DNA of 64,000 nt, from NCBI RefSeq assembly GCF_000974445.1, contig NZ_BBOJ01000024.1, positions 1 through 64,000 of the forward strand, given 5' to 3'. The notes beneath the pieces were generated by a model that was not told where the DNA came from, did no database searches, and saw only the letters and a list, made by a program, of their open reading frames with translations. The position numbers and the translations under genes were made by a program. This document shows positions 15,832-31,503 of the stretch, in pieces; the stretch's first letter is position 1, and each line of letters starts with the position of its first letter. The stretch comes from Lentzea aerocolonigenes (lineage in GTDB: Bacteria > Actinomycetota > Actinomycetes > Mycobacteriales > Pseudonocardiaceae).

Positions 15832-16821
15832 CTAGATGCCGTTGGCCCAGGAGGTGACCACGGCGTGGTAGTCCGGGGCGTTCGGCGCGTAGTTGATGGA
15901 GTGGCCGTAGCCGTTCAGGACGTAGGTGTCCAAGCGCGGCACGGACGGGAAGAACTGGCCCTCGTCGGCCTTCAGGGCCTCCGGGGAGGAGCAGTCGCTG
16001 CCCATCAGCGGGAGGCCCGCGCTGCAGAAGTGCGTGTCGTTGCCGACCACGATGAGGACGGGAACGGTGATGTTGCGGGAGATCGGGATGATCACCGTGT
16101 CGAGGAGGATGGTGTCCACGGCTTCTGTTGCGGCGAAGACGTCCTTCGTGGACTCGTCGAACGAGATCGCGCCGGGGACCAGCGGGCCCGGTTTGTGGAA
16201 CGCGTTGTAGCGGGTGTCCGGCATCGTCGTCAGGTAGCCCGCGTCGAGGCCTGCCGGGATCATGTTGGCCAGCACCGGGACGACGGTGATGTAGTTCATC
16301 TTGTGCGTGAAGCCGGTGACCAGGACGCCGTCCACGTCGCGGTAGGTGCCCGCTTCGATCATGGCCATCGCCGAGCCGATGGAGTGGCCGGCGACGATCA
16401 CCTTGGAGAAGCGGGGTTTCAGCGTCGCGATGACCTGGTGGGCCGCGCTCGCCTGGGTTGAGGCGGTGACGAACGTGCTCAGGGGCTTGGAGCTCAGGCC
16501 GGTGCCCAGGCGGTCCAGGGCCAGGGTGGCGAAGCCCGCGTTGTTCTGGGCCTGGGTGAACGAGTGGGTCGAGGGTTCGAAGCCGACGTCCCAGTACGTC
16601 CTGTCGTAGGTGCCGCCGGGGATCAGGACCTGGACGGTGGTGGCGCCGTCGGGGACGCACAGCCTGCCGGCCATGGTCTCCAGCGACGTCACCAGCGGGG
16701 TGAGGCCGATTCGGACGGGGTAGCTGACGTTCTGGCAGGAAACGGCGGCGGAGGCGGGCAGCGGAGCTAGCAGGGTTCCGGTTGCCAGCAGAGCCGCGGC
16801 GCACAGCCTGCGGAAACGCAT
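15832..16821 (-). CDS. Secreted alpha/beta hydrolase, cassette copy 1
   Basis: 329 residues with a Sec signal peptide (MRFRRLCAAALLATGTLLAPLPASAA). The mature enzyme has the nucleophile elbow AGHSIGS (about residue 145), an oxyanion segment IPGGTYDRTYWD, and a C-terminal GYGHSINYA that supplies the catalytic His. Cys pairs (SCQNVSYP...GRLCVP; HFCSAG...SDCSS) suggest disulfides outside the cell. The substrate is unknown; a lipid or ester is plausible. The start is 18 bp downstream of the P450 stop with a GGAGGTCG ribosome site, so it is probably co-transcribed with the P450. Paralogues are at 21340 and 25973. Confidence 0.87.
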   Translation of the reverse strand: MRFRRLCAAALLATGTLLAPLPASAAVSCQNVSYPVRIGLTPLVTSLETMAGRLCVPDGATTVQVLIPGGTYDRTYWDVGFEPSTHSFTQAQNNAGFATLALDRLGTGLSSKPLSTFVTASTQASAAHQVIATLKPRFSKVIVAGHSIGSAMAMIEAGTYRDVDGVLVTGFTHKMNYITVVPVLANMIPAGLDAGYLTTMPDTRYNAFHKPGPLVPGAISFDESTKDVFAATEAVDTILLDTVIIPISRNITVPVLIVVGNDTHFCSAGLPLMGSDCSSPEALKADEGQFFPSVPRLDTYVLNGYGHSINYAPNAPDYHAVVTSWANGI

Positions 16822-16839
16822 GGTGGAACGACCTCCAAC

Positions 16840-18153
16840 TTAGTTGGTGCGGGGGACGGTCTTCATCAGCAAGCCGTCCGGGTACGGGGCGGACGTGAAC
16901 TTCACGCGCGCCGGACGGGTGGGGACGAGTCGCCAGCGCCTCGCGACGGTCGCGAGGGTGATGACGATCTCCGTGTGGGCGAAGGTGTTGCCCAGGCACT
17001 GGCGGGTGCCGCCGCCGAACGGGACGTACGCGCCGCGCGGGAGGGAGGCGGTGAACTCGGGCGTCCAGCGGTTGGGCGAGAAGCGGTCCGGGTCCGGGTA
17101 GAAGCGCGGGTCGTGGTGCAGCGCGTGCGGGCTCACGATCACCTCGGTGCCCGCCGGCAACGAGACGTCGCCCAGCTGCACTTCGACGAGGGTTCGGCGC
17201 ATCACGAACCAGATCGGGTACTTCCGCAAGGTTTCCTGCACGACCTGGGCGGTGTAGGTCAACGAGCTCACGTCGGCGAACGTGACCTGGCGGTCGCCGA
17301 CCACCGAGTCGACCTCCTCGTGTAATCGGCGTTCGATCTCGGGGTTCAGACCCACCTCGTACAGCGCCCAGGCCAGTGCGATCGCGGTGGTCTCGATGCC
17401 GGCGGTCAGCAGCGTCAGGACCTCGTCGTAGACCTGCTGGTCCGTCATTCCGACGCCGTCGTCCTGCGCCAGCAGCAGCATCGACAGCACGTCGCCGTGG
17501 TCGGTGCCGTCCGCGCGCCAGCTCTCGATCAGTTGCAGCACAACGGCTTTCATGCGGGCGATCGCGGCGTCGAACTCCCGGTTGCCCGGCAGCGGGAGCT
17601 TCTCGACGAACGACGGGGACAGCGCGCGGATCATGCCCTGCTGGATCACCGTGAAGATCGAGCGGCGGACCTCCGCGACCGCGCGTTCTCCCATCTCCGC
17701 CGAGAAGAGCGCCTCGCCGACGATGGTGACCGCGAGCTCCTGCATGTCGTTCTCGATGACGCGGATCTCGCCGGGCTGCCACCTCTCAACCAGCGCAGAA
17801 GCAGCACGAGCCATCGTCGAGGCATACGCTTGGATCCGTTCCCGATGGAACGCCGGTTGCATCATCCGGCGCTGTCGCAGGTGGTACTCGCCGTTCGACA
17901 GCAGCAGTCCCGTCCCCAGGTACGGCTGGAACTTGTCGAACATCGCGCCCTTGCGGAACTTGGAGCCTTGGGAGACAAGAACTTCGTGGGTCAGCGCCGG
18001 ACTGGTGACGAAGTACGCGCGCAACGGACCGAGGTCGAGGCGCACCACGTCACCGTGCTCGTGCAACGCGTCGGTGAACCCGGCGCGCCGGGTGAGCATC
18101 GCCGGGGTGTGCCCGAGTAACGGCCAGCGGCTGGGAGCCACCGGGACGGGCAT
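16840..18153 (-). CDS. Cytochrome P450, cassette copy 1
   Basis: About 437 residues. The heme loop PFGGGTRQCLGNTFA (Cys about 380), I-helix AGIETTAIALAWALYE, and K-helix ETLRKYP with downstream PDRFSPNRW are all intact, so it should be a functional monooxygenase. The ATG at 18151-18153 is chosen because AGGAG lies 5 bp upstream and the start matches the paralogue at 28308; the longer in-frame extension would run into the opposing methyltransferase gene. A TAGGGT -10 candidate lies at 18192-18197 (minus strand). No ferredoxin or reductase is encoded nearby, so redox partners come from elsewhere. The sequence looks like bacterial class P450s that hydroxylate fatty acids, terpenes or polyketides, but the substrate cannot be called. 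Confidence 0.9.
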   Translation of the reverse strand: MPVPVAPSRWPLLGHTPAMLTRRAGFTDALHEHGDVVRLDLGPLRAYFVTSPALTHEVLVSQGSKFRKGAMFDKFQPYLGTGLLLSNGEYHLRQRRMMQPAFHRERIQAYASTMARAASALVERWQPGEIRVIENDMQELAVTIVGEALFSAEMGERAVAEVRRSIFTVIQQGMIRALSPSFVEKLPLPGNREFDAAIARMKAVVLQLIESWRADGTDHGDVLSMLLLAQDDGVGMTDQQVYDEVLTLLTAGIETTAIALAWALYEVGLNPEIERRLHEEVDSVVGDRQVTFADVSSLTYTAQVVQETLRKYPIWFVMRRTLVEVQLGDVSLPAGTEVIVSPHALHHDPRFYPDPDRFSPNRWTPEFTASLPRGAYVPFGGGTRQCLGNTFAHTEIVITLATVARRWRLVPTRPARVKFTSAPYPDGLLMKTVPRTN

Positions 18154-18334
18154 TCGGACTCCTGGGGAGTTGGGCCGAATGGGGACGGACCACCCTAGGA
18201 GCCGTTTGGGGGAAGACGACAGTGCCTGATCGGGTGGTTCCGCATCACTCTGTTGGTTCAGTGTGCACGCCTCTCGGGTGACTAAGCTCGTGCGTCTTCC
18301 CCCGATCGCCACGAAAACCGAAGAGGTGCTTCCC
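18154..18334. promoter_or_regulatory. Divergent control region of cassette 1
   Basis: 181 bp between the P450 and methyltransferase starts. Seen: minus-strand -10 TAGGGT at 18192-18197, the 20-bp conserved element at 18218-18237, an ATCACTC at 18244-18250, and a plus-strand TAAGCT at 18283-18288. The same order of elements is present in cassettes 2 and 3, with TTCACAC in place of ATCACTC. Confidence 0.65.
18218..18237. promoter_or_regulatory. Conserved palindromic element, copy 1
   Basis: GACAGTGCCTGATCGGGTGG, differing in one position from copies 2 and 3. Here the central palindrome is CCTGATCGGG, one mismatch from CCCGATCGGG. It lies 21 bp upstream of the P450 -10 candidate and 46 bp upstream of the methyltransferase -10 candidate, so a bound regulator could act on both promoters. 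Confidence 0.6.
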
Positions 18335-19153
18335 GTGGCAGAGACCCAGGACTGGGTGCCGCTCGGCATCGACACCACCGTGCCGAGCATGGCCCGCGTC
18401 TACGACTACATCCTCGGCGGCGCCCACAACTTCGCCGCCGATCGCCAGGTCGGCTCCCAGATCGAGAAGCTCGTGCCGGGCCTGCCCAGCGTCGCGAGGC
18501 TCAACCGCCGGTTCCTCGGCCGCGCGGTGAACTTCCTGATGGACCAGGGAGTTCGCCAGTTCCTCGACATCGGTTCGGGCATCCCGACCGTCGCGAACGT
18601 GCACGAGGTGGCGCAGGACCGCGACCCGGCGGCCCGGATCGTCTACGTCGACAAGGATCCCGTCGCCGTCGCGCACAGCCAGTTGATGCTCTCCGGCAAC
18701 GACAACGCCGCCATCGTCCAGGCGGACATGCGCGATCCGGAGGCCGTGCTGGCGAGCCCCGACGTGAGGCAGCTGCTGCGCTTCGACGAGCCGATCGGGC
18801 TGTTGATGCTGCTCATGCTGCACTGGGTGCCGGACGAGGACAGCCCCGAGAAGCTCGTCGCGCACTACCGGGACGCGCTGCCCGCCGGCAGCTTCATCGT
18901 GATGACGCACGTGGCCAAGGACCAGATCGACGAGAAGGTCGACCAGGCCGCCGACGTCGTGAACCGCAGCAAGAGCGCCGACCAGATGCACATGCGCACG
19001 CACGAGCAGGTCAGCGCGTTGTTCGACGGGTTCGAACTGGTCGAACCGGGCCTCGTCGGCTGCGGGGAGTGGCGGCCGGACGGTCCGGGCGACTTCGCGG
19101 ACGAGGCGTCCATGAACATGTTCCTCTACGCCGGGGTCGGTCGTAAGGGATAA
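18335..19153 (+). CDS. DUF574 SAM-dependent methyltransferase, cassette copy 1
   Basis: About 272 residues of the actinobacterial S-adenosyl-methyltransferase family (DUF574/Methyltransf_19). The family N-terminus ...VPSMARVYDYILGGAHNFAADR is followed by FLDIGSGIPT (SAM loop, about residue 78) and VYVDKDPVAVAHS (acidic ribose-binding residue), then LMLLMLHWVPD. The GTG at 18335 follows AAGAGG at 18321-18326; all three cassettes share this GAAGAGG...GTG arrangement. DUF574 enzymes are very numerous in filamentous actinomycetes, and the acceptor is not known. It is transcribed away from the P450; the GGDEF gene starts 102 bp downstream and has its own conserved promoter. Confidence 0.88.
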   Translation: MAETQDWVPLGIDTTVPSMARVYDYILGGAHNFAADRQVGSQIEKLVPGLPSVARLNRRFLGRAVNFLMDQGVRQFLDIGSGIPTVANVHEVAQDRDPAARIVYVDKDPVAVAHSQLMLSGNDNAAIVQADMRDPEAVLASPDVRQLLRFDEPIGLLMLLMLHWVPDEDSPEKLVAHYRDALPAGSFIVMTHVAKDQIDEKVDQAADVVNRSKSADQMHMRTHEQVSALFDGFELVEPGLVGCGEWRPDGPGDFADEASMNMFLYAGVGRKG

Positions 19154-19175
19154 AACCACACAGTAGTGTCGGAGG

Positions 19176-19220: not shown

Positions 19221-19255
19221 GCCGGACACTCTCCAACCCATACAGGGCAACGGGA

Positions 19256-21343
19256 ATGACGAATCCGAGCCGAAGACCCGATGCCGCTCCACCACCGGAC
19301 CACGCCGCCGTCCGCGCGCGGGAAGCCTTGTCGCGCAAGTGGAGCTACCTGCTCAGCAGCGTCATCGTCGTCGCGCTGAGCAGAGACGAGCTGGACGCCG
19401 AACTGGGCGGCCAGCTCGACGCGTTGTGCGCGGCGCTGCACAGCGAGCCGTTCGACCCTGCTCCGTTCGAGGAGGTGGGCGAGCGACTCGTCGCTCTCGG
19501 CTACGTCAACGAGCCCGGCCTCCGGCGCACCGTCGACGTGCTGGGCAAGGGCCTGCTCGCGCTGGAGGAGTTCCAGGAGATCGAGCACTTCCCGGTGCGC
19601 GTCGTCGGTGGCCTCGGCGCGCTCGCCGCAGGGTTCTCGCTGGCCCGCGGCCGCTCGATCCTGGACCAGCAGGAGAGCATGCAGCGCTCGTTGCTCAAGG
19701 CCGCTCGTGACGCGCAGTGGGACCAGCGGCAGAGCGAGGCCAAGTTCGCGGGCATCGCGATCTCGTCGACGAACGGCATCCTGATCGTCGGCCTCGACGG
19801 CAGGATCGTGTGGGCGAACGAGGCGATCGGCGAGATCATCGGCGGCCGGCCCGAGCCAGGTGTCCGGCTCATGGAGCTCATCGCGCCGAACTCGGTCGTG
19901 GCGTTCCGCGAGATGATGGAGAAGGTTCTCGCCGAACGCGACGAGTTCGAGCGCGAGCCGATCCAGTTGCTGCGCGGCGAGGACGATCTGGCCAAGGTGA
20001 CGCTGACCGCGTCACTGCTGCGCGACGGCGACGACAAGCCGAGCCACGTGCTCGTGGTCGCCGACGACGCCACGGAACTCGCGCTGCTGCAAGGAGAACT
20101 GCGCAGGCAGTCGCTGCACGACGTGCTGACGGGCCTGCCGAACCGGCAGTTCTTCACCACGCACCTGGAAACCGTGCTGCGCCGCGCCGACCCGGAGTTC
20201 GGCGTGACCGTGTTCCACCTGGACCTCGACGCGTTCGGCCTGGTGTGCAACAGCCTCGGCGGCCGCGTCGGCGACAAGCTGCTGCAGCACGTCGCGCGCC
20301 GGCTGCGGGCGTTGATGTCCCACGAGCAGGCGATGGTCGCGCGATTCGACGGCGACGAGTTCGGCATCGTCGTGGAGAACACCGAAGCGACACCGGACAT
20401 CGCGACGATCATGGCCGCGATCAACACCGACCTGGCCGAACCGATCTTCGTGGACGAACACGGGCTCGCCGTCTCGGTGAGCGCGGGCGTGGTCCACCGG
20501 CCGTCACCCGACGTCGAGCCCACCGAACTGATGCGCATGGCGGACCTCGCGTTGCGGCAGGCCAAGAAGGACCAGCGCGGCCAGTGGGAGTTGTTCCACA
20601 GCAACCAGGACACCGAACGCAGGCGCGACCACGCGCTGGCCGTCGTGATGCCCGGCGCGTGGGAGCAGGGCGACATCGGCGTCTGCTACCAGCCCGTCCG
20701 CGTCCTCGCGACCGGTGAGCTCGCCGGCGTCGAGGCCGTGCTGCACTGGGACCTCTCCGACCGGTGCGCCGAGCTCGCCGACCAGACAGGACTCATCCTG
20801 CCGATGGGCGAGTGGCTGATCAGGATCGCGACCGGCCAGGCGCAGTGGTGGCGGCAGCGCGGTGAGCTCGACGCGCAGTTCGGCGTCCGGCTCACCCGGC
20901 ACCAGGCGACCGACGCGGACCTGGTGTCACGCGTGGCGAAGGTGCTGGAGGAGACCGGAATGCCGCCCGAGCTGCTGACGCTGACCATGCCGGTCGGCGT
21001 GCTGAGCGTGGCCGGCGCGGCGGAGAACCTGAGCACGCTGGCGGACACCGGCATCCGGATCGCACTCGACGACTTCGGCCTCGGGCCGCGTGACCTGGCG
21101 TGGCTCTCGGAGCTGCCGATCGCGTCGGTGTGCGTGCCGAAGGACCTGGTGCAGCGTCAGGATCCGCGCTCCGCCACGCTGGTCAAGGCCGTGCACGACC
21201 TGGGCGTGAACCTATGCGTCGACGGCGTCGAGACCGCGGAGCAGGCGAAGTGGTGGACGGAAGCGGGCGCCGACCTCGCGATCGGCGCCCACTTCGGTGC
21301 GCCCGAAGCCGCGGGCGACCTGCTCAAGAAGCTCCAGGGCTAG
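19256..21343 (+). CDS. PAS-GGDEF-EAL protein, cassette copy 1
   Basis: 695 residues with no membrane segments. The N-terminal ~150 residues are helical and unassigned, a PAS domain follows (about 155-280, ISSTNGILIVGLDGRIVWANEAIG), then GGDEF (SLHDVLTGLPNRQFF ... RFDGDEFGIV, motif DGDEF about 365) and EAL (GVEAVLHW about 490). Both catalytic domains deviate. The usual guanine-contacting Asn in the F-x3-ND stretch is Cys (LVCNSLGG). In the EAL domain the ELTE, LKID and VAEGVET positions read LTMP, VCVP and CVDGVET. A c-di-GMP sensor or scaffold is at least as likely as an enzyme. No RxxD inhibitory site precedes DGDEF. It ends in a CTAG shared with the stop of the opposing hydrolase. Confidence 0.85.
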   Translation: MTNPSRRPDAAPPPDHAAVRAREALSRKWSYLLSSVIVVALSRDELDAELGGQLDALCAALHSEPFDPAPFEEVGERLVALGYVNEPGLRRTVDVLGKGLLALEEFQEIEHFPVRVVGGLGALAAGFSLARGRSILDQQESMQRSLLKAARDAQWDQRQSEAKFAGIAISSTNGILIVGLDGRIVWANEAIGEIIGGRPEPGVRLMELIAPNSVVAFREMMEKVLAERDEFEREPIQLLRGEDDLAKVTLTASLLRDGDDKPSHVLVVADDATELALLQGELRRQSLHDVLTGLPNRQFFTTHLETVLRRADPEFGVTVFHLDLDAFGLVCNSLGGRVGDKLLQHVARRLRALMSHEQAMVARFDGDEFGIVVENTEATPDIATIMAAINTDLAEPIFVDEHGLAVSVSAGVVHRPSPDVEPTELMRMADLALRQAKKDQRGQWELFHSNQDTERRRDHALAVVMPGAWEQGDIGVCYQPVRVLATGELAGVEAVLHWDLSDRCAELADQTGLILPMGEWLIRIATGQAQWWRQRGELDAQFGVRLTRHQATDADLVSRVAKVLEETGMPPELLTLTMPVGVLSVAGAAENLSTLADTGIRIALDDFGLGPRDLAWLSELPIASVCVPKDLVQRQDPRSATLVKAVHDLGVNLCVDGVETAEQAKWWTEAGADLAIGAHFGAPEAAGDLLKKLQG

Positions 21344-22338
21344 ATGCTGCGCTGCCACGCGATGACCGCCGCGTGGTAGGCGTCCGCGTCCTGGGCCGCG
21401 AAGTTGAAGCAGTGCCCGTAACCGTTGAGGACGAACGCGTCGAACCGCGGAGCGTTCGGGAAGAACGGCCTCTCGGACGCTGCCAGTGCGGCCGAGGACG
21501 AGCAGTCGGCGCCGAGCGGCGGGGTGCCGCAGAAGTAGTCCGCGCTGGACTGCACCGACATCACCGGCGCGGTGATGCTGCGGCTGGAGGGGATCACGAT
21601 GTTGTTCATGAGGATGGCGGTGACGGACTCGTTGGACGAGAACGCGTCCTTTGTGGACTCTTCGTAGTCGATCACCGCCTGGTTCAGCGGACCGGGCTTG
21701 TGGAACGTGTCGTAGCGGCCGCCCGGTGCCGTGGTCAGGTAGCCCGGGTCCAGACCCAGCCTGCTCAGCTTCGGGTCGAGCGTGACCGGGATCAGGCCGG
21801 TGAGCGCGGGCACCACTCTGGTGTAGTCCCACTGGTCGGCCATGCCAGTGGTCAGCACGCCGTCGACGTCGTGGTAGGTGCCCGCCTCCGCGAGTGCGAC
21901 CGCGGAGCCGATGGAGTGGCCGCCGACGAGCACCTTCTGGAACTGCGGGCGCAGGTTCTGGATCACCTGGTGCACCGCTTGGGCCTGGTTCGGGGTGTTG
22001 ATCAGCGCGCTCAGCGGTTTGCTGCTCCTGCCCGAACCGATCCGGTCCACCGTCATGGTGGCGATGCCGGCGTGGTTCATCGCCTGCCGCACCGAGCGGA
22101 CCTCGGGCTCGACCGGGATGTCCCAGTACGCGGTCGTGTACGTCCCACCGGGGACCAGGACCTGCACCGTCGTCGCGCCCTGCGGTACGCACAGGCTTCC
22201 GTACATGGTCTGCTGGGTGAGCCCGAAGGCCACCGGGGTGTACACGTCCTGGCAGCTGGTCTCGACCGCGTTCGCGGGAGCGGGCACGGGGACGAACAAT
22301 GCGAGCAATGCGGCGGCACAGAGCCGACGGAGACGCAT
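21340..22338 (-). CDS. Secreted alpha/beta hydrolase, cassette copy 2
   Basis: 332 residues. Signal peptide MRLRRLCAAALLALFVPVPAPANA, nucleophile GGHSIGSAVALAE (about residue 143), C-terminal GYGHCFNFA with the catalytic His. Cys residues are conserved with copies 1 and 3, plus an extra Cys next to that His shared only with copy 3. The open reading frame is intact although the adjacent P450 is not, so the hydrolase may still be useful or may simply not yet have decayed. A GGAGG ribosome site lies about 10 bp upstream of the ATG. The stop shares CTAG with that of the GGDEF gene on the other strand. Confidence 0.87.
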   Translation of the reverse strand: MRLRRLCAAALLALFVPVPAPANAVETSCQDVYTPVAFGLTQQTMYGSLCVPQGATTVQVLVPGGTYTTAYWDIPVEPEVRSVRQAMNHAGIATMTVDRIGSGRSSKPLSALINTPNQAQAVHQVIQNLRPQFQKVLVGGHSIGSAVALAEAGTYHDVDGVLTTGMADQWDYTRVVPALTGLIPVTLDPKLSRLGLDPGYLTTAPGGRYDTFHKPGPLNQAVIDYEESTKDAFSSNESVTAILMNNIVIPSSRSITAPVMSVQSSADYFCGTPPLGADCSSSAALAASERPFFPNAPRFDAFVLNGYGHCFNFAAQDADAYHAAVIAWQRSI

Positions 22339-22355
22339 CGGGGAACAACCTCCAA

Positions 22356-22798
22356 CTAACGGGGAACGGCCTTCATCACGAGGCCGACGGGGTGGACGGC
22401 GTTGGTGAACTTGGTGCGCACCGGCCGGACGGGGACCAGCTGCCGGACGCGTCGGGGTTCCGGTGGTTCGCGCGGTCGTGGTGCGGCGCGTGCGGGCTGA
22501 GGGTCACCTCGGTGCCGGAGGCCAGGCGCGCGCCGTCCGGACGCACCGTCGAGAGCAGGTCGCCGTGGTCGGCGGGATCGAGCCCGTTGCCGGTGAACAG
22601 GCGGAATCTGTCGAACATCCGCCCTTTGTGGTGCATCAGCTGCGGAATCGTCACGAAAAACGTTCGCACCGGGCCCGGACGTACTTCAGCCAGATCACCC
22701 TGACGCTGTGAATTCGAGGTGGACTCGAATCTTTTCCATAGCATTGGCAAGGTGTTCCCGGGAAATGGCAGCCTGCCGGATGCCGCCGGGACGGACAT
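22356..22798 (-). pseudogene. Cytochrome P450 pseudogene, cassette copy 2
   Basis: Relic of the cassette P450. The N-terminus matches copy 3 closely (GRLPFPGNTLPMLWKRFESTSN, then HKGRMFDRFRLFTGNGL). Several internal deletions follow, and the remaining segments recognisable against copy 3 are DHGDLLST, LASGTEVTLSPHAPHH and, in another frame at 22356-22440, the authentic C-terminus VRPVRTKFTNAVHP ... VPR-stop. The B' to I-helix region, the I-helix threonine, ExxR and the whole heme-Cys loop are gone, so it cannot bind heme. About 443 bp remain of a gene of about 1310 bp. Most junctions keep the frame; only the last is shifted. The start and AGGAG site are preserved. Confidence 0.88.
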
Positions 22799-22961
22799 CA
22801 TCGCTCCTCGCGACGTGGAAAGTGATGGACCACCATAGGAGTCATTCGGGTGAGAGTGACAGTGCCCGATCGGGTGGCCTGCGTTCACACCGGCGGCGTA
22901 ATGTCGTGAGCTTCGTGCCTGCCTAAGCTTGTGCGTCCGCAAACCCGAAGAGGTGGACGCC
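22799..22961. promoter_or_regulatory. Divergent control region of cassette 2
   Basis: Minus-strand -10 TATGGT (22832-22837), conserved 20-bp element (22858-22877), TTCACAC (22884-22890) and plus-strand TAAGCT (22924-22929), 40 bp from the start of TTCACAC. The P450 promoter is retained although the P450 is a pseudogene, probably because it also drives the downstream hydrolase. Confidence 0.65.
22858..22877. promoter_or_regulatory. Conserved palindromic element, copy 2
   Basis: GACAGTGCCCGATCGGGTGG, identical to copy 3, with the perfect 10-bp palindrome CCCGATCGGG at its centre. Confidence 0.65.
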
Positions 22962-23777
22962 GTGACGGATGATCGGAACTGGGTTCCGCAGAGCGTTGAC
23001 GTCTCCGTGCCGAGTCCGGCGAGGCTGTACGACTACATGCTGGGCGGAGCGCACAACTTCGCGGTGGACCGCCAGATGGGCGCGAAGATCGAGCACCTGA
23101 TGCCGCACGCGCGCAGCGCCGCCAGGATCAACCGGAAGTTCCTCGGCCGCGCGGTGAGGTTCATGGTCGACGCGGGGGTGCGGCAGTTCCTGGACATCGG
23201 TTCCGGCATCCCGACGGTGGCCAACGTCCACGAGGTCGCGCAGGCCGTGGCCCCCGAGTGCCGCGTCGTGTACGTCGATCGCGACCCGGTCGCCGTCGCC
23301 CACAGTGAACTGATTCTCGCTGGTAACGACCGGGCCGCCGTGCTCCAGGCCGACATGCGCGACCCGGACAGCATCCTGAACGCCGGAGAGGTGGGCCGGC
23401 TGCTCGACTTCGACCAGCCGATCGGTCTGCTGATGCTGTTCATGGTCCACTGGGTGCCGACCGAGGACGATCCGTGGGGCCTGATGAAGCACTACCGCGA
23501 GGCCCTGCCCAGCGGGAGCTACCTGGCGATCACCCACCTCGCGAACGACCACGACAACGAGGGCGTCAGGGCCGCGGCCACCAGGCTGAGCCAGGTCGGC
23601 GGGGAGCAGGCGATCGAACGCGGCAAGGACGAGATCGCGGCGTTCTTCGGTGAATTCGAGCTGGTCGAGCCGGGACTCGTCAGGTACGCGGAATGGCGCT
23701 CCTCCGGTCCGGGCGACATATCCGATGATCCCACGGTGAACGAGATCGCCTATGGATCCGTCGGACGCAAGCCATAG
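22962..23777 (+). CDS. DUF574 SAM-dependent methyltransferase, cassette copy 2
   Basis: 271 residues, clearly paralogous to copies 1 and 3 and closest to copy 3. Family landmarks: PSPARLYDYMLGGAHNFAVDR, FLDIGSGIPTVANVHEVAQ, VYVDRDPVAVAHSELILAG, MLFMVHWVPTEDDPWG. The GTG at 22962 follows GAAGAGG with the conserved layout; the in-frame upstream TTG-type extension lies within the promoter region. No inactivating change is visible in the SAM loop. It starts 160 bp from the P450 relic and is followed 103 bp later by its GGDEF partner. Confidence 0.88.
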   Translation: MTDDRNWVPQSVDVSVPSPARLYDYMLGGAHNFAVDRQMGAKIEHLMPHARSAARINRKFLGRAVRFMVDAGVRQFLDIGSGIPTVANVHEVAQAVAPECRVVYVDRDPVAVAHSELILAGNDRAAVLQADMRDPDSILNAGEVGRLLDFDQPIGLLMLFMVHWVPTEDDPWGLMKHYREALPSGSYLAITHLANDHDNEGVRAAATRLSQVGGEQAIERGKDEIAAFFGEFELVEPGLVRYAEWRSSGPGDISDDPTVNEIAYGSVGRKP

Positions 23778-23880: not shown

Positions 23881-25986
23881 ATGCCCAACCCGAGTCGAAT
23901 ACCAGACGCGTCGCCACCGCCCGATGACAATGCCCGGGCACGGCTGACGCTTGCTCGCACTTGGTCATATCGGCTGCTCAGCACGGTCGCGATTCCGATG
24001 GGCAGCAAAGATCTCGACGTGGAACTGAGCGGTCGGCTCGACGCGTTGTGCGCGATGCTGCACGAGGAACCGTTCACCACCGCGGTCGTCGAACAGGCCG
24101 GCGCGGATCTCGCGCGCCTCGGGCACCTCGGCCGGGACGGCCTGAAGTGCACCGCGGAGGTGCTCGGCAAGGGGTTGCTCGCGCTGCCGGAGTTCCAGCC
24201 CGTCGAGCGGTACGCGGAACGGGTCGTGCTCGCGATGGGCGCACTCGGTGCCGGTTTCACCGCCGCGAACACCGAGTCGGTGCTCACGCAGCAGGAGGTC
24301 ATGCAGCGGTCGTTGCTGAAGGCGGTGCGCGACGCGAACTGGAACCTCAGGGAGAGCGAGGCCCGGTTCAACGAGGTGGTCACGTCGTCGACCAACGGCG
24401 TGCTGATCGTCGACCTCGAAGGCAGACTGCTGCGGACCAACGCGGCGACCGGCGACATCCTCGGGTACGCCCAGGAGGAGCTCGTCGGGGTGCCGCTGCT
24501 CGATCTCATCGCGCCCGGCTTCGCCGAGATGCTGCACAACGCGATGGCAGAACTGGTCGACGGTGCGGTGGAGCGGGTCAGCCAGTCGCAGCGGATGGTG
24601 CGCAAGGACGGTGAGGTGGCGCAGCTGACGCTGACCGCGTCGCTGCTGCGCGGTGCCGACGACGCGCCTGCCCACTTCGTCGTGGTGGTGGAGGACGGCA
24701 CGGAACTGGCGTTGCTGCAGGGCGAGCTCAAGCGGCAGTCGTTGCACGACGTGCTGACCGGTCTGCCGAATCGCCAGTTCTTCACCACGCAGCTGGAGAT
24801 CGCGCTGCGCAACGCGGATTCCGAGCACGGCGTCACGATCTTCCACCTGGACCTCGACGCGTTCGGCATGGTCTGCAACGGCTTCGACGGCCGCGTCGCC
24901 GAACGGTTGCTGCAGCACGTCACCCAGCGGCTGGAAGTTCTGCTGGCGGGCGAGAAAGCGATGATCGCCCGGCTCGGCGGTGACGAGTTCGGCGTCCTGA
25001 TCGAGAACGCGGCGGCCACGCCGAGCATCGGCGTGATCATGAAGAGCATCAACGACGACCTGCTCGAACCGGCCTATGTGGACGGTCGTGGACTCGCGGC
25101 GTCCGTGAGCGCGGGTGTCGTGCACCGGCCGGACCCAGACTGGGAACCGTCCGAGGTGCTGCGCGCCGCGGAACGAGTGCTGCGCAAGGCCAAGAAGGGC
25201 AGACGCGGGCAGTGGGAGCTGTTCCACGCCGGCCAGGACGCCGAGGACCGCCGGAACGACGCGGTGGCCGTGGAGATGCCGGGTGCGTGGGAGAACGGCG
25301 AGATCGTCGTGCGGTACCGCCCGGTCGTGCGCCTCGGCGACGGTGAGATCGGCGGCGTCGAGGCGGTGCTGCACTGGGATCGGCCGGGTGCGGGCCCCCT
25401 GGAGCACGACGTGTGCCTGGAGCTGGCCGAGGCCACCGGGTTGATCCTGCCGCTCGGCGAGTGGTTGCTGCGGGTCGCGGCGGGCCAGTCGGCGTGGTGG
25501 CGGCAGCGCGGGCAGTTCGACCAGCCGCTCGTCGTGCGGCTCACCGCGCACCAGTCGGCCGACGCTGATCTGGTCTCACGCGTGGTGGGAGCGCTCGAGG
25601 AAACAGGGCTCCCGTCCGACCGGCTGATGGTCAGCATGCCCAGCAGGGCGCTGCCGATGGCCGACGCGGCCGACGACTTCACGGTGCTCGACCGCATCGG
25701 CGTCCTGACCGCGATCGACGACTTCGGGCTCGGCCCGCGGGATCTGGCGTGGCTCTCCGAGTTGCCGGTGAGGTCGGTGCTGGTGCCGCCGGACCTGACG
25801 AGGAGTCAGGACGCCCGCTTCGCCGTGCTGGTTCCGGCTGTGCACGAGTCGGGTGTGCGGATCTGCGTGGACGGCGTCGAGACCGCGGACCAGGCGAAGT
25901 GGTGGACGGAAGAGGGCGCCGACCTCGCGATCGGCGCCCACCTCGGAGCTCCGCTGGACGCGGGAGACTTCCTCAAGAAGATCTAG
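23881..25986 (+). CDS. PAS-GGDEF-EAL protein, cassette copy 2
   Basis: 701 residues, same architecture as copy 1: unassigned N-terminus (about 1-150), PAS (about 155-280), GGDEF, EAL. This copy alone keeps a canonical GGDEF (RLGGDEFGVL, about residue 365). However, the guanine-binding stretch reads MVCNGFDGRVAERLL, with the conserved Asn and Asp positions as Cys and Glu. The EAL domain is degenerate (GVEAVLHW; VRLTAHQS instead of the NxS strand; VSMPS instead of ELTE; VLVP instead of LKID). No membrane segments. ATG preceded by GAGG at 8-bp spacing. Its 3' end overlaps the opposing hydrolase copy 3 by 14 bp. Confidence 0.85.
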   Translation: MPNPSRIPDASPPPDDNARARLTLARTWSYRLLSTVAIPMGSKDLDVELSGRLDALCAMLHEEPFTTAVVEQAGADLARLGHLGRDGLKCTAEVLGKGLLALPEFQPVERYAERVVLAMGALGAGFTAANTESVLTQQEVMQRSLLKAVRDANWNLRESEARFNEVVTSSTNGVLIVDLEGRLLRTNAATGDILGYAQEELVGVPLLDLIAPGFAEMLHNAMAELVDGAVERVSQSQRMVRKDGEVAQLTLTASLLRGADDAPAHFVVVVEDGTELALLQGELKRQSLHDVLTGLPNRQFFTTQLEIALRNADSEHGVTIFHLDLDAFGMVCNGFDGRVAERLLQHVTQRLEVLLAGEKAMIARLGGDEFGVLIENAAATPSIGVIMKSINDDLLEPAYVDGRGLAASVSAGVVHRPDPDWEPSEVLRAAERVLRKAKKGRRGQWELFHAGQDAEDRRNDAVAVEMPGAWENGEIVVRYRPVVRLGDGEIGGVEAVLHWDRPGAGPLEHDVCLELAEATGLILPLGEWLLRVAAGQSAWWRQRGQFDQPLVVRLTAHQSADADLVSRVVGALEETGLPSDRLMVSMPSRALPMADAADDFTVLDRIGVLTAIDDFGLGPRDLAWLSELPVRSVLVPPDLTRSQDARFAVLVPAVHESGVRICVDGVETADQAKWWTEEGADLAIGAHLGAPLDAGDFLKKI

Positions 25987-26980
25987 TGGCGTGGCGCTGC
26001 CACGCGACGACCGCGTCGTGGTAGCGGGTCGAGTCGGGCGCGAAGTTGAAGCAGTGGCCGTAGCCGGTGAGGACGAACGCGTCGACTCGCGGTGCCTGCG
26101 CGTAGAACGGCCTTTCGGACGCTGCCAGCGCTTCGGAGGACGAGCAGTCGGAACCGAGCGGCGGGGTGCCGCAGAAGTAGTCGGACGGCGTCTGGACGCT
26201 CATCACCGGCACGGTGATGGCGCGACTGGCCGGAATCACGAGGTTCACCATCAGCGGCGTCGTGACCAGTTCACCGGCCGCGAAAACGTCCTTTGTGGAC
26301 TCGTCGTAGGCGACGACGGCCGGGTTCAGCGCACCCGGCTTGTGGAACGAGGTGTAGCGGGATCCCGGTGCCGTCGTCAGGTAACCGGGATCCAGGCCGA
26401 GCTTGCTCAGCTGCGGGTCGAGCGTGACCGGGATCGAGCCGGCGATCGCGGGCAACGCCTTGAGGTAGTCCCACTGGTTGGTCATCCCGGTGACGAGCAC
26501 CCCGTCGACGTCGCGGTACGTGGCGGCCTCGGCGATCGCGATCACGGAGCCGAGGGAGTGGCCGCCGATGAGCACCTTCTGGAACTGCGAGCGCATCCGC
26601 TGGACCACCTTGTGCACCGCGTCGGCCTGGCTCGGCACGGTGACGAGCGCGCTCAGCGGCCTGGTGCTCCTGCCGGTGCCGATCCGGTCGACCGCCATGG
26701 TGGCGATGCCGGCGTGGTTCATCGCGAGCCGGACCGAACGGACCTCGGGGTCGAGCGGGATGTCCCAGTACGCACTGGTGTAGGTGGCGCCGGGAACGAG
26801 GACCTGGACCGTGGTCGCGCCCCGGGGGACGCACAGCTTGCCGTACATGGTCTGCTGGGCGAGGCCGGAGCTCACCGGTGTCTGGACGTCCTGGCAGGTG
26901 GTCTCGACGGCGTTCGCGGGAGCGGGCACGGGGACGAACAAAGCGAGCACAGCGACGGCACAGAGCCGACGGAGACGCAT
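25973..26980 (-). CDS. Secreted alpha/beta hydrolase, cassette copy 3
   Basis: 335 residues. Signal peptide MRLRRLCAVAVLALFVPVPAPANA; nucleophile GGHSLGSVIAIAE (about residue 143); C-terminal GYGHCFNFA. Very similar to copy 2 but with a different C-terminal tail (WQRHATRSS) created because its stop lies inside the end of GGDEF copy 2. The ATG at 26978-26980 is preferred over longer in-frame starts because it gives the signal peptide and has GGAGG about 10 bp upstream. It starts 17 bp after the P450 stop, so co-transcription is likely. Confidence 0.87.
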   Translation of the reverse strand: MRLRRLCAVAVLALFVPVPAPANAVETTCQDVQTPVSSGLAQQTMYGKLCVPRGATTVQVLVPGATYTSAYWDIPLDPEVRSVRLAMNHAGIATMAVDRIGTGRSTRPLSALVTVPSQADAVHKVVQRMRSQFQKVLIGGHSLGSVIAIAEAATYRDVDGVLVTGMTNQWDYLKALPAIAGSIPVTLDPQLSKLGLDPGYLTTAPGSRYTSFHKPGALNPAVVAYDESTKDVFAAGELVTTPLMVNLVIPASRAITVPVMSVQTPSDYFCGTPPLGSDCSSSEALAASERPFYAQAPRVDAFVLTGYGHCFNFAPDSTRYHDAVVAWQRHATRSS

Positions 26981-26997
26981 GGGAGAACAACCTCCGG

Positions 26998-28308
26998 CTA
27001 ACGGGGAACGACCTTCATCAGGAGGTCGATGGGGTACACGGCGTTGGTGAACTTGGTGCGCACGGGCCGGTCCGGGACGAGCCGGTAGCGCGAGCAGACG
27101 GTCGCCACCGCGATGACGATCTCGGTCAGCGCGAAGTGGTTCCCGATGCACTGGTGGATCCCGCCGCCGAACGGGACGAACGCTCCCTTGGGCAGTTGCC
27201 GGGCGCGTTCAGGAGTCCAGCGGTCCGGGTCGAAGCGCTCGGGATCGGGGTAGTGCTGGGGGTTGTGGTGCATGGCGTGCGGGCTGATGATCAGCTCGGT
27301 GCCGGGCGCCAGGTGGACGCCGCCCAGGTCCACGTCCTCCACGACGCGCCGCATGAGGAGCCAGAGCGGGTACTTGCGCAGCACCTCGGTGGCGACCTGG
27401 CCGACGTAGGTCAGCTTCGGCACGTCGTCGAACGTCACCGGACGCCCGGACAGCACCTCGTCGATCTCGGTCAGCACCCGCTGCTCCACCGCGGGATTGG
27501 CGGCGATCTCGTGGAAGATCCACGCCAGCGCCAGCGCGGTGGTCTCGATGCCGGCCGACAGCAGGGTGATGACCTCGTCGAAGACCTGCTGGTCGGTCAT
27601 CGGTTCACCGGCCTCGTCCCTGGCCAGCATCAGCGTCGACAGCAGGTCGCCGTGATCGGTGCCGTCGGCCCGCCAGCTCGCGATGACCTCCTGCACGATC
27701 GCGCGCATCCGGGCGATCGCCGCGTCGAACTCGCGGTTGGCCGGGATGGGCAGCTTCTCGACGAACCCCGGTGAGAGCGCGCGCACGATGCCCTTCTCGA
27801 CGATCGTGGAGATCGAGCGGCGAGCCTCGTCGATCGCGCGCTCGCCGATCTCGGTCGAGAACAGCGCCTCGCCGACGATCGTGATCGCGAGGCCCTGCAT
27901 GTCCTCTTCGATCCGCCGCACCTCACCGGGCCGCCAGTCGTCCACCAACTCCCGCGTCGCGCGGATCATGGTGTTCGCGTAGCCCGCGATCCGGTCGCGG
28001 TGGAACGCCGGCTGCATCATCCGGCGCTGGCGCAGGTGGAAGGGTCCGTTCGACATCGCGAGCCCGTTGCCCATGAACGGCCGGAACTTGTCGAACATCC
28101 GCCCTTTGTGGAACTTGGGCGCGTCGGTGACCAGCACCTGGTGCATCAGTTGGGGGCTCGCCACGAACACCGTGCGCATCGGCCCGAGATAGATTTCGAC
28201 CAGATCACCTTGAGCGCGTAAATTCGAGGTGAATTGGAATCTTTTCCGCAACATCGGCAGAGTGTGCCCGAGAAATGGCAGCCTGCCGGGCGCCACCGGG
28301 ACAGACAT
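26998..28308 (-). CDS. Cytochrome P450, cassette copy 3
   Basis: About 436 residues with all P450 hallmarks: I-helix AGIETTALALAWIFHE, K-helix EVLRKYP, PERFDPDRW, heme loop PFGGGIHQCIGNHFA (Cys about 380). It is closely related to copy 1 (shared GNGL...LRQRRMMQPAFHRxRI and DGTDHGDxLS blocks). Of two adjacent ATGs, the second (28306-28308) has the AGGAG at 5-bp spacing, as in copy 1. It is intact and presumably active; redox partners are not encoded nearby. It is followed by hydrolase copy 3. Confidence 0.9.
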   Translation of the reverse strand: MSVPVAPGRLPFLGHTLPMLRKRFQFTSNLRAQGDLVEIYLGPMRTVFVASPQLMHQVLVTDAPKFHKGRMFDKFRPFMGNGLAMSNGPFHLRQRRMMQPAFHRDRIAGYANTMIRATRELVDDWRPGEVRRIEEDMQGLAITIVGEALFSTEIGERAIDEARRSISTIVEKGIVRALSPGFVEKLPIPANREFDAAIARMRAIVQEVIASWRADGTDHGDLLSTLMLARDEAGEPMTDQQVFDEVITLLSAGIETTALALAWIFHEIAANPAVEQRVLTEIDEVLSGRPVTFDDVPKLTYVGQVATEVLRKYPLWLLMRRVVEDVDLGGVHLAPGTELIISPHAMHHNPQHYPDPERFDPDRWTPERARQLPKGAFVPFGGGIHQCIGNHFALTEIVIAVATVCSRYRLVPDRPVRTKFTNAVYPIDLLMKVVPR

Positions 28309-28470
28309 CATCGCTCCTCGCGACGTGGAAAGAGAAAGTCAACCCTAGGAGTCATTCGGCCCACAGTGACAGTGCCCGATCGGGTGGCGTGTGTTCACAC
28401 GTGCGGACCAGCCGCGGGCCCGTCGTGCCTGCCTAAGCTTGTGCGTCCGCAACCTGAAGAGGTGGTCGTC
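28309..28470. promoter_or_regulatory. Divergent control region of cassette 3
   Basis: Minus-strand -10 TAGGGT (28342-28347), conserved element (28368-28387), GTGTGTTCACAC (28389-28400, itself a palindrome around TTCACAC at 28394-28400) and plus-strand TAAGCT (28434-28439). TTCACAC to TAAGCT is 40 bp, as in cassette 2. Confidence 0.65.
28368..28387. promoter_or_regulatory. Conserved palindromic element, copy 3
   Basis: GACAGTGCCCGATCGGGTGG, identical to copy 2, centred on CCCGATCGGG. Confidence 0.65.
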
Positions 28471-29283
28471 GTGGCCGACGAGAAGAGCTGGGTTCCACAG
28501 AGCGTGGACGTCTCCGTGCCGAGCGCGGCGAGGCTGTACGACTACATGCTCGGGGGTGCGCACAACTTCGCGGTCGACCGCCTGGCGGGTGACCGGATGG
28601 AGGCCGTGATGCCGCACGCGCGCAGTGCGGCCAGGGTGAACCGGGCGTTTCTCGGCCGCGCGGTGCGGTTCATGGTCGACCAGGGCATACGCCAGTTCCT
28701 GGACATCGGCTCCGGCATTCCCACCGTGGCCAACGTGCACGAGGTCGCCCAGGAGGCAGCTCCGGAGTGCCGGGTCGTGTACGTGGATCGCGATCCCGTG
28801 GCCGTCGCGCACAGCGAACTGATCCTCGCCGGCAACGACCGCGTCCGCGTGCTGCAGGCCGACCTGAGGGATCCGGACAGCATCCTGAACAGCCCGGAAG
28901 CGCGTCTGCTGGACTTCGACCAGCCGATCGGCGTGCTGATGCTGCTGATGCTGCACTGGGTGCCGACGGAGTTCGATCCGTGGGGGCTGTTGAAGCACTA
29001 CCGCGAGGCGTTGCCCAGCGGGAGCTACCTGGCGATCACGCACTTCGCCGACGACCACGACTACGAGCCCGTCAAGATCGCGGCCGCCAACATCAACAAG
29101 GCGGGCGGTGACCAGGCGGTCGAGCGCAGCCGGGACGAGATCGCCGCGTTCTTCGGTGATTTCGAACTGGTCGAACCGGGACTCGTCAAATTCGCCGAAT
29201 GGCGACCCTCCGGACCGGGGGACATGTCCACTGATCCGGCGATCAACCGACTCGCGTACGCTGGAGTCGCACGCAAGCCATAG
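28471..29283 (+). CDS. DUF574 SAM-dependent methyltransferase, cassette copy 3
   Basis: 270 residues. PSAARLYDYMLGGAHNFAVDR, FLDIGSGIPTVANVHEVAQ, VYVDRDPVAVAHSELILAG and LMLLMLHWVPTEFDPWG are conserved with copy 2. GTG start at 28471 after GAAGAGG, as in the other copies. The middle segment that differs most between copies (residues about 195-225, after YLAITHF) may carry acceptor specificity. 105 bp separate it from the start of GGDEF copy 3. Confidence 0.88.
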   Translation: MADEKSWVPQSVDVSVPSAARLYDYMLGGAHNFAVDRLAGDRMEAVMPHARSAARVNRAFLGRAVRFMVDQGIRQFLDIGSGIPTVANVHEVAQEAAPECRVVYVDRDPVAVAHSELILAGNDRVRVLQADLRDPDSILNSPEARLLDFDQPIGVLMLLMLHWVPTEFDPWGLLKHYREALPSGSYLAITHFADDHDYEPVKIAAANINKAGGDQAVERSRDEIAAFFGDFELVEPGLVKFAEWRPSGPGDMSTDPAINRLAYAGVARKP

Positions 29284-29307
29284 AGAATCCCGATCGAGTG
29301 ATGTTGA

Positions 29308-29352
29308 TTCACACTGCCGGTCGAGAAGAAACCAACACTCCGTGGGTAAGAT
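29308..29352 (+). promoter_or_regulatory. Promoter architecture of GGDEF gene, cassette 3
   Basis: TTCACACTGCCGG at 29308 and TAAGAT at 29347, 39 bp apart as in the other two cassettes; palindrome AGATGC-CGA-GCATCT at 29349-29363. Confidence 0.6.
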
Positions 29353-29388
29353 GCCGAGCATCTGAGCCCATTGCGAGGCAGCCCTGAG

Positions 29389-31503
29389 ATGGTCAACCCG
29401 AGCCGCATTTCAGATGTCACGCCCTCGCCCGAGGACATCGCCAGGGCGCGGCTGACGCTTGCCAGGACGTGGTCGTACCGCCTGCTCGAGACCGTGGCCA
29501 TCCCGATGGGGCGCGACCTCCTCGACGAGGAACTGAGCACCCGGCTGGACGCGCTGTGCGCGATGCTGCACGAGGAGGCGTTCGCCACCAGCGCGGCGGA
29601 GCAGGCCGGTGCGGAGCTGGCGAACCTGGGGTACCTCGGGCACCTCGGGCTGCGCTGCACCGCGGAGGTGCTGGGCAAAGGACTGGTCGCCCTGCCGGAG
29701 TGCCGGCCCGTCAGCCGGTACGCGGAACGGATCGCGCTGCTGATCGGCGCGCTCGCGAGCGGCTTCACCAAGGCCAACACCGAGTCCGTGCTGGCACAGC
29801 AGGAAAGCCTGCAGAAGTCGTTGCTGAAGGCGGTGCGCGACGCGAACTGGAACCTCAAGGAGAGCGAGGCCCGGTTCAACGAGGTCGTGACGTCGTCGAC
29901 CAACGGCGTGCTGATCGCCGACCTCGAAGGACGGCTGCTCAGGACGAACGCGGCGGTGGGCGACATCCTCGGATACGCCCAGGACGAGCTCATCGGCGTG
30001 CCGCTGCTCGACCTCATCGCGCCCGGCTTCGCCGACATGCTGAGCAAAGCGATGAAGGAGCTGATCAACGGCAGCGCCGAGCGGATCAGGCAGTCGCAGC
30101 GGATGGTGCGCGAGGACGGGGAGCCCGCGCGGCTCTCGCTCACGATCTCGTTGCTGCGCGGCGCGGACGACGGGCCCAGCCACTTCGTCGTCACGATCGA
30201 GGACGGCACCGAGCTGGAGCTGCTGCAGAGCGAGCTCAAGCGGCAGTCGTTGCACGACGTGCTGACCGGACTGCCGAACCGGCAGTTCTTCACCACGCAG
30301 CTGGAGATCGCGGTGCGCACCGCGGATCCCGAGCACGGCGTCACGATCTTCCACCTCGACCTCGACGCGTTCGGCATGGTGCGCAACAGCTTCGGTGGCC
30401 GGGTCGCGGAGCGGTTCCTGCAGCACGTCGCGCAGCGGCTCAGGGTGGTGCTGGCCGGCGAGAAGGCCATGATCGCCCGGTTCGACGGCGACGAGTTCGG
30501 CGTGCTCGTGGAGAACACGGCGACCACGCCGGGCATCGGCGCGATCATGAAGAGCATCAACGACGAGCTGCTCGAACCGACCTATGTGGACGGTCACGGG
30601 CTCGCGGTGTCGGTGAGCGCGGGCGTGGTGCACCGGCCGGCGGTGGGCGCCGAACCGGTTGATCTGCTGCGCGCCGCGGACACGGCGTTGCGCCGGGCCA
30701 AGGTGCGCCGGCGCGGGCAGTGGGAGGTGTTCCACCCCGGGCAGGACGCCGAGGACCGTCGTGACCACGCGATGGCCGTGACGATGCCGGGCGCGTGGGA
30801 GAACGGCGAGATCACCGTGCGGTACCGCCCGCTCGTGCGGCTGGCCGACGGAGAGATCACCGGTGTCGAGGCGGCCCTGCACTGGGACCGGCCGGACACC
30901 GGCCCGCTGGAGCACGACCGCTGCGCGGAGCTGGCCGAGGCCACCGGGTTGATCCTGCCGCTCGGCGAGTGGCTGCTGCGCGTCGCGAGCGGGCAGTCGG
31001 CGTGGTGGCGGCAGCGCGGGCAGTTCGACCGGTCGCTCGTCGTGCGGCTCACCGCGCACCAGTCGACCGACGCGGACCTCGTGTCACGCGTGGTGGGAGT
31101 GCTCGAGGAGACCGGGCTGGCGGTGCAGGACCTGGCGATCAGCATGCCGTCCGAGGTGCTGCCGGTGACCGATGCCGCCGACAACCTCGCCGTGCTCGCG
31201 GGGCTCGGCGTGCACGTGGGGATCGACGACTTCGGGCTCGGACCGCTGGATCCGGCGTCCGTGCCGGAGCTGCCGGTCCGGTCGGTGCGGGTGGCGCGCA
31301 GTCTGGTCGCGCGCCGATCTCCTTACGTGACGGCGTTGCTGCCGTTGGTGCGCGAGGCCGGCATCACGGTCGCGGTCGACGGGATCAGCAGCGCGGAGCA
31401 GGCGCAGTGGTGGCGCGAGGCGGGAGCCGACTTCGCGACCGGCGACCACTTCGGCACGGCGGGGACGTCCGGTGACTTCCTGAAGAGGCTGGAGCCCCGG
31501 TGA
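29389..31503 (+). CDS. PAS-GGDEF-EAL protein, cassette copy 3
   Basis: 704 residues, same layout as copies 1 and 2. The GGDEF motif reads DGDEF (RFDGDEFGVLVE), with MVRNSFGGRVAERFL in the guanine-binding region. The EAL domain is the most eroded of the three: GVEAALHW, ISMPSEVLP, VGIDDFGLGPLDPASVPELP, VRVARSL and VAVDGISSAEQ, so the VxEGVET motif is lost altogether. Phosphodiesterase activity is very unlikely. The ATG at 29389 matches the MxNPSRI start of the paralogues and has GAGG about 10 bp upstream. It is followed by a hairpin shared with the convergent chitinase gene. Confidence 0.85.
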   Translation: MVNPSRISDVTPSPEDIARARLTLARTWSYRLLETVAIPMGRDLLDEELSTRLDALCAMLHEEAFATSAAEQAGAELANLGYLGHLGLRCTAEVLGKGLVALPECRPVSRYAERIALLIGALASGFTKANTESVLAQQESLQKSLLKAVRDANWNLKESEARFNEVVTSSTNGVLIADLEGRLLRTNAAVGDILGYAQDELIGVPLLDLIAPGFADMLSKAMKELINGSAERIRQSQRMVREDGEPARLSLTISLLRGADDGPSHFVVTIEDGTELELLQSELKRQSLHDVLTGLPNRQFFTTQLEIAVRTADPEHGVTIFHLDLDAFGMVRNSFGGRVAERFLQHVAQRLRVVLAGEKAMIARFDGDEFGVLVENTATTPGIGAIMKSINDELLEPTYVDGHGLAVSVSAGVVHRPAVGAEPVDLLRAADTALRRAKVRRRGQWEVFHPGQDAEDRRDHAMAVTMPGAWENGEITVRYRPLVRLADGEITGVEAALHWDRPDTGPLEHDRCAELAEATGLILPLGEWLLRVASGQSAWWRQRGQFDRSLVVRLTAHQSTDADLVSRVVGVLEETGLAVQDLAISMPSEVLPVTDAADNLAVLAGLGVHVGIDDFGLGPLDPASVPELPVRSVRVARSLVARRSPYVTALLPLVREAGITVAVDGISSAEQAQWWREAGADFATGDHFGTAGTSGDFLKRLEPR

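Follow-up and report, generated by a model that had tools for sequence, protein, structure and literature searches.

A 64,000-nucleotide stretch of the Lentzea aerocolonigenes genome (assembly GCF_000974445.1, contig NZ_BBOJ01000024.1, positions 1 to 64,000; hereafter the window, contig C32 in our numbering of this 10.69-Mb genome) carries three head-to-tail gene cassettes at positions 15832..31503. Each has the layout H(-) P(-) <> M(+) G(+), in which a hydrolase (H, Pfam Abhydrolase_6) and a cytochrome P450 (P, p450) on one strand face a methyltransferase (M, Methyltransf_19/DUF574) and a PAS-GGDEF-EAL protein (G) on the other. The cassette array is real: coordinates, order, and orientation were verified, and no foreign genes lie inside it. 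The initial annotation, which reported four families repeated three times in the same order and orientation with no genes between, was correct in these respects, except that the middle P450 is a remnant and that cassettes 1 and 3 are anciently diverged. The remnant, P2, has no Pfam match, and tblastn recognized pieces corresponding only to about residues 1-84, 216-227, 331-368, and 410-437 of P3. The array holds three hydrolases, three methyltransferases, three GGDEF/EAL proteins, and two P450s, with the following features.

15832..16821, minus strand: H1, predicted secreted alpha/beta hydrolase, StnA-methylesterase family (Abhydrolase_6; 54% identity to H3)
16840..18153, minus strand: P1, cytochrome P450 (Pfam p450 7e-83; heme Cys kept)
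18218..18237, plus strand: cassette element, divergent P1/M1 promoter (1 mismatch to the 20-mer)
18263..19153, plus strand: M1, DUF574/Methyltransf_19 S-adenosylmethionine (SAM) methyltransferase (Pfam 1.1e-92; PDB 2qe6, 3giw; start codon uncertain)
19256..21343, plus strand: G1, helical N-terminal domain, PAS, eroded GGDEF (DGDEF), degenerate EAL
21340..22338, minus strand: H2, predicted secreted alpha/beta hydrolase (Abhydrolase_6)
About 22356..22801, minus strand: P2, P450 remnant with large internal deletions (tblastn pieces only)
22858..22877, plus strand: cassette element, P2/M2 (0 mismatches; retained despite the P2 remnant)
22929..23777, plus strand: M2, DUF574 methyltransferase (Pfam 8.1e-88)
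23881..25986, plus strand: G2, PAS-GGDEF-EAL protein (GGDEF signature retained, EAL degenerate)
25973..26980, minus strand: H3, predicted secreted alpha/beta hydrolase, StnA family (phmmer to PDB 5hdf E 1.5e-54, residues 3-328)
26998..28311, minus strand: P3, cytochrome P450 (Pfam 2.5e-81; nearest solved structure 3dbg)
28368..28387, plus strand: cassette element, P3/M3 (0 mismatches)
28474..29283, start approximate, plus strand: M3, DUF574 methyltransferase (PF04672, 296.8 bits at 28489-29280)
29389..31503, plus strand: G3, PAS-GGDEF-EAL protein with a DGDEF signature (alternative upstream TTG at 29371 possible)

The arrangement is not due to chance, because DNA repeats link the cassette copies across all four gene families and because the same arrangement is conserved in other genera. 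Recurrence beyond close relatives, anticipated in the initial annotation, was clearest in a sample of 78 loci anchored on the P450 and independent of G. All 43 loci with a close P450 (>450 bits against the reference set) contained the H-P-M triad, although some of these shared a genome, and several of the genomes turn up again in the other samples. The triads were found in nine genera: Lentzea, Amycolatopsis, Kibdelosporangium, Kutzneria, Umezawaea, Saccharothrix, Longimycelium, Allokutzneria, and Crossiella. G was also present at 31 of the 43 and was not adjacent at the other 12, making it an optional member. None of the 35 loci with a distant P450, mostly from Streptomyces, had H, M, or G. 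The second, partly overlapping sample comprised 20 loci picked from hits; H and M were present at all 15 with a close P450. Of these, 8 had G downstream of H, 2 had it behind M and codirectional with it, 2 had it convergent after M, and 3 lacked it; the five remaining loci had no H, M, or G. No H or G was found at ten class-level P450 loci (best scores of 355-443 bits), one of which (L157) had a DUF574 gene on the opposite side of the P450, and neither the order-level nor the class-level P450 search found a triad outside one family. Two triad records labeled Rhodococcus rhodnii and Nocardia sp. (L217, NZ_LGDY01000164.1) are probably misnamed. The record labeled R. rhodnii (L184, JOAA01000002.1) has 93.7% identity over 11.9 kb to Kibdelosporangium aridum.

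A search anchored on G in 249 genomes of the family Pseudonocardiaceae, Lentzea included, returned matches at E <= 1e-180 in 60. Among 40 non-Lentzea loci with a G hit, 17 had all four families, 15 had G alone, and 8 were partial (two each of PG, PMG, MG, and HMG; hits >120 bits). Since cassettes lacking one member exist, neighbors or unlinked genes may complement them. Another signaling protein substituting for G was considered and rejected, as 10 neighbor genes at 8 of 14 G-less triad loci had no common family (RecQ twice, GH20 twice, flavin adenine dinucleotide monooxygenase-like twice, and single S15 peptidase, NlpC/P60, metallo-beta-lactamase-fold, and AraC-type regulator [L197] genes).

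Within the window genome, H matches occurred at four places (E <= 1e-8), each in a triad: three in the array, the middle one with the P450 remnant, and one on contig C34 without an adjacent G. The other families were more numerous, with 16 DUF574 genes above the cutoff, four of them in triads and three others directly upstream of G, and 14 GGDEF-EAL matches at E <= 1e-20. DUF574-GGDEF/EAL pairs with no hydrolase or P450 nearby were seen on contigs C55, C52, and C33 (L005, L006, and L007), so M and G also form a module on their own. G paralogues with no M, P, or H in the fetched stretch were found in several genera (L117-L123) and in the window genome (L167, G000:C42:84136).

Trees of the four families matched, as the initial annotation had proposed. 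After reduction of 107 distinct P450 units to 66 (few Lentzea, complete H-P-M), patristic distances correlated at 0.879 for H-P, 0.846 for H-M, and 0.872 for P-M, compared to 0.14 or less for the largest of 200 label permutations. Correlations of G with H, P, and M were 0.84-0.88 (48 units; permutations cover the H/P/M pairs only). In a tree of 86 G proteins, cassette-linked and unlinked G were interleaved, some unlinked proteins falling inside linked clades. G attaches to the triad at three positions; the two unusual ones, convergent after M and downstream of H, are each monophyletic with FastTree support of 1.0. The simplest reading is that G joined the triad more than once, with repeated loss elsewhere as the alternative.

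All 24 Lentzea genomes searched had a G match at E <= 1e-150, and in each of the 23 besides the window genome all four families were recognizable in one cassette or more. Sixteen of the 20 loci fetched first had two cassettes, two had three, and two had one plus a lone G; three further genomes had one cassette (L173), two with one cut by a contig end (L174), and two (L175). Two cassettes are thus usual (18 of 24), and three-cassette arrays occurred in three genomes (the window genome G000, G002, and G020). All three cassettes are complete in G002, while the middle cassette of G020 has no detectable P450 and retains the promoter element with 2 mismatches. In L175 (G010:C1, a single-contig genome), both G genes match as two separate pieces, from decay or sequencing errors. 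A chitinase-like gene at 31546-32493, with a GH18 match just below the Pfam cutoff, follows the array in the window; such a gene adjoins the array at 14 of 20 Lentzea loci and is probably unrelated to the cassette.

Sequence identities indicate that cassettes 1 and 3 are old paralogues and cassette 2 a younger copy of cassette 3. Group-mean identities between cassettes 1 and 3 were 58.1% (H), 61.5% (P), 55.8% (M), and 54.5% (G), whereas the best non-Lentzea matches of cassette 1 averaged 69.0%, 70.8%, 65.4%, and 56.4%, respectively. Cassette 2 is near cassette 3 (74% identity for G and 75% for H). A recent tandem triplication was rejected because cassette 1 is nearer another genus's cassette than cassette 3 in all four families. 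The term "triplicated" in the initial annotation therefore needs qualifying, given the ancient divergence of cassettes 1 and 3 and the younger age of cassette 2.

Alignment of the P/M intergenic regions revealed a conserved 20-bp element, GACAGTGCCCGATCGGGTGG, present within 4 mismatches in all 46 Lentzea regions. With 4 mismatches allowed for this element and 1 for a second form, CACACGATCGGATG, 36 of 59 regions outside Lentzea had one or the other, and 23 had neither at these cutoffs. Shuffled P/M regions never reached either cutoff (fraction 0.000), and the window has three occurrences compared to 0.01 expected. A degenerate 18-mer had exact sites in the window genome only at the three cassettes; with 1-2 mismatches it was no more common than its reversed control (54 versus 58 in all, whole genome). 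Across the 249 family genomes, a stricter 18-mer had 28 exact sites in 24 genomes and none for the reversed control, and 27 of the 28 mark a cassette or its remains: 24 lay between P and M (two of these being the window's own, one beside the P450 remnant), two between a P and a G with no M found, one upstream of a lone G, and one elsewhere. Half of the 28 sites were in Lentzea, and 13 of the 14 outside it were at cassettes. This pattern was derived from part of the same loci and is specific rather than sensitive, missing the cassette 1 form, for example. At the lone G (L333, G149:C1:1690221), where the element sits just upstream and no P or M was found in the fetched 3 kb, the remainder of the cassette seems to have disappeared. 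The second form was less specific, with 45 sites, of which 30 were read: 10 at P/M junctions, 6 at dipeptidase-like/NarL-type gene pairs, 4 apparently in one Lentzea coding region, and 10 elsewhere.

This shared DNA stretch probably switches the cassette on. G was rejected as its own DNA-binding regulator, since its N terminus has no Pfam match and the element is kept in triads without an adjacent G. Variants with 3-4 mismatches occur in G-less triads (L188 and L192), and L329, L330, L332, L346, and L347 keep the element and show no G in roughly the 600 bp that follow M. Both forms resemble the BldM operator of Streptomyces venezuelae given in the available passages of PMC4125116, TCACcCgnncGgGTGA, with which the element shares a CCCGATCGGGTG core. 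The convergent-clade form, GCACTCGATCGGGTGA (L193), is close to that operator, and some other-genus forms are nearer to it than the window's. However, the window element is cassette-specific, and the BldM Group I site as such is absent from the window promoters, which differ at 4 of 14 specified positions. BldM was set aside as the cassette regulator, its core matching but with these 4 mismatches, and is left as a lead. In the window genome, the BldM palindrome is matched with one mismatch at 22 places and exactly at none, and the reversed pattern, a weak control, gave 0; these 22 could mark a developmental regulon of this Lentzea. At seven loci (L286 [G000:C25:50328], L351, L352, L364, L365, L371, and L376), the second form lies between a dipeptidase-like gene, named by eye with no NCBIfam match, and a NarL/LuxR-type response-regulator gene, and the response-regulator matches there have 96-100% identity across three genera. 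This response regulator is a candidate for regulating the cassettes, set aside because the element is nearer the start of the opposite dipeptidase-like gene at the 6 of 30 read sites with such a pair.

Active-site residues of the three enzymes are essentially invariant. The heme Cys was present in 107 of 107 P proteins, and the SAM-motif Asp and both Gly residues were present in 100 of 100 M proteins, 5 of 105 having been excluded for open reading frame calls that were too short. Methyltransf_19 scores were 310.8, 294.8, and 296.8 bits for M1, M2, and M3, compared to a cutoff of 26. For P3, the nearest solved structure was 3dbg, which we take to be CYP170A1, and pentalenene oxygenase was among the best NCBIfam models; however, P3 scored 375 bits against a curated cutoff of 700, and the cassette has no terpene synthase.

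By homology, H belongs to the StnA methylesterase family and is predicted to hydrolyze methyl esters. H3 matched PDB 5hdf over residues 3-328 of 335 (phmmer E 1.5e-54), spanning the whole enzyme including the cap. Entries 5hdf and 5hdp were taken as StnA since chain residues 185, 308, and 349 agree with the catalytic Ser185-Asp308-His349 reported in the available passages of PMC5225493. These residues align with S, D, and H, which are kept in all 102 H proteins, and 100 of the 102 begin with a signal-peptide-like N terminus by a simple in-house score. The likeness to StnA thus combines a nearly full-length match, an aligned Ser/Asp/His, and an N-terminal leader. Streptonigrin, however, is made by a 48-gene cluster according to the same passages, whereas the cassette has no scaffold-building gene and its methyltransferase is of the DUF574 family.

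The initial annotation had linked G to a nucleotide second messenger. Scored at the residues that we presume to be catalytic in EAL domains, 86 G proteins mostly kept the EAL Glu, with the ExTE Glu in 6, the Lys in 3 (mostly Arg instead), and the Asn in 4. With most EAL catalytic residues lost, G does not look like a c-di-GMP (cyclic di-GMP) phosphodiesterase. The GGDEF site appears eroded in many members and retained as a signature in one clade: in the main clade the GGDEF Glu was present in 35 of 37 and the first Gly in 6 of 37, GGDEF was intact in 11 of 11 members of the GHP clade, and 3 of 3 members of the convergent clade had Lys in place of the GGDEF Glu. The FK-motif Lys, which we take to be equivalent to PleD K332, was absent in 37 of 37 main-clade proteins and in the GHP clade, and the I-site motif was absent from G. 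A TGA inside the G gene of several g27 genomes was considered and dropped, as in the one that was read (L113) it is the end of the protein. The proposed messenger link is the weak part of the initial annotation, although one clade keeps the GGDEF signature; G is also the optional member of the cassette.

The N terminus of G had no Pfam match. An AlphaFold model of G3 residues 1-162 (mean predicted local distance difference test score of 90.7) predicts an all-helical domain that appears to resemble those of RsbR-type stressosome and globin-coupled sensor proteins. Conservons, small regulatory-looking operons of Actinomycetota that occur in several versions and sometimes include a P450, share these general features with the cassette. 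None of the four core Cvn proteins, as named in the abstract of PMC13343842, was found by Pfam among ten cassette proteins.

The conserved unit, the shared element, the essentially invariant active-site residues of H, P, and M, and the loss of most EAL catalytic residues in G were all observed computationally, and their best reading, which we consider about evenly poised between right and wrong, is that of one co-regulated cassette that masks and unmasks a small molecule and carries its own sensor. The cassette would make or remodel a hydrophobic small molecule: the P450 would oxidize it and the DUF574 enzyme methylate it, perhaps to a methyl ester, both intracellularly, and the exported StnA-family hydrolase would remove the ester outside, so that the final form would appear only outside the cell. 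A single palindrome-like element between the divergent operons, bound by a regulator encoded outside the cassette, would drive both of them, and G would serve as a sensor or scaffold instead of a c-di-GMP enzyme, perhaps reading the molecule or its redox or lipid context. The cassette could then be a portable form of the mask-then-unmask logic suggested by methyl-ester hydrolysis by StnA in the available passages of PMC5225493. The hydroxylation, methylation, and external hydrolysis proposed in the initial annotation fit the StnA family assignment and the leader of H; the order of the chemistry we infer, along with the methyl-ester linkage, export, the regulator, and what G senses.

Detoxification or scavenging, in which H would cleave a foreign compound outside the cell, P450 and methyltransferase would inactivate it inside, and G would sense it, is an unlikely but serious competitor. 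Several diverged versions per genome would suit several foreign substrates, no scaffold enzyme is present, and both the signal-peptide-like start of H and the sensor-like G are as expected, yet H is related to a biosynthetic methylesterase, the array has no transporter or efflux gene, and the locus recurs in every other Lentzea genome searched, whereas detoxification genes are often patchy.

It is rather improbable that G, its EAL domain being dead, still acts as a diguanylate cyclase and ties the cassette to c-di-GMP levels. The precedent is CdgC of Streptomyces, described in the available passages of PMC6205966 as a membrane-bound, active cyclase with a highly conserved GGDEF. Like G, it joins GGDEF and sensory domains to an EAL domain without catalytic residues. 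The common GGDEF Glu of the main clade, the whole signature in the GHP clade, and the GGDEF of G2 agree with such activity, but the missing FK Lys and I-site motif, the rarity of the first Gly, and the Lys substitution in the convergent clade do not, and G differs from CdgC in its often eroded GGDEF and helical N-terminal domain.

Doubtful too is a new kind of multichannel chemical signaling system of the Pseudonocardiaceae, with a masked methyl-ester signal, G as a globin-fold/PAS reader with degenerate GGDEF-EAL domains, and a closed operator loop. P450 and DUF574 enzyme would build the signal, the exported esterase would unmask or destroy it outside, and the cassette-specific operator could serve as many as four channels in a genome, diverged and possibly insulated from one another.

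We give little credence to two modules sharing one promoter, in which M and G would form a self-contained regulatory pair, with M either acting upon G or supplying its ligand, and H-P would be the output or a passenger. M-G pairs without H-P do occur at the three further places in the window genome and in L127, L125 has H without P, and L104 has only fragments of H and P. Triads without G are nonetheless common among close-P450 loci, in one lineage G moves to the H side while M stays with P, and the distances of all four families correlate. Mere neighborhood by descent is scarcely credible. In its favor, triads were confined to one family in the order- and class-level searches, and species relatedness inflates the tree correlations, though several genomes supply paralogues. 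Against it, the set is maintained in paralogous cassettes of a single genome, G has been added at more than one place, every H match of the window genome lies in a triad, and the element is cassette-specific.

No description of the cassette was found in the literature searched (open-licence PMC titles, abstracts, and passages). Its parts are known; what seems new there is their combination, the element specific to its promoter, and the employment of a GGDEF-EAL protein in a sensor-like role. For DUF574 methyltransferases, for which structures but no proven reaction were found in that literature, the cassette offers a genomic context, and in it a protein of the c-di-GMP type seems to have become a local sensor of small-molecule chemistry. 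Because the cassette-specific element allows the unit to be located and switched with ease, a hunt for the metabolite is directly feasible in cultivable strains.

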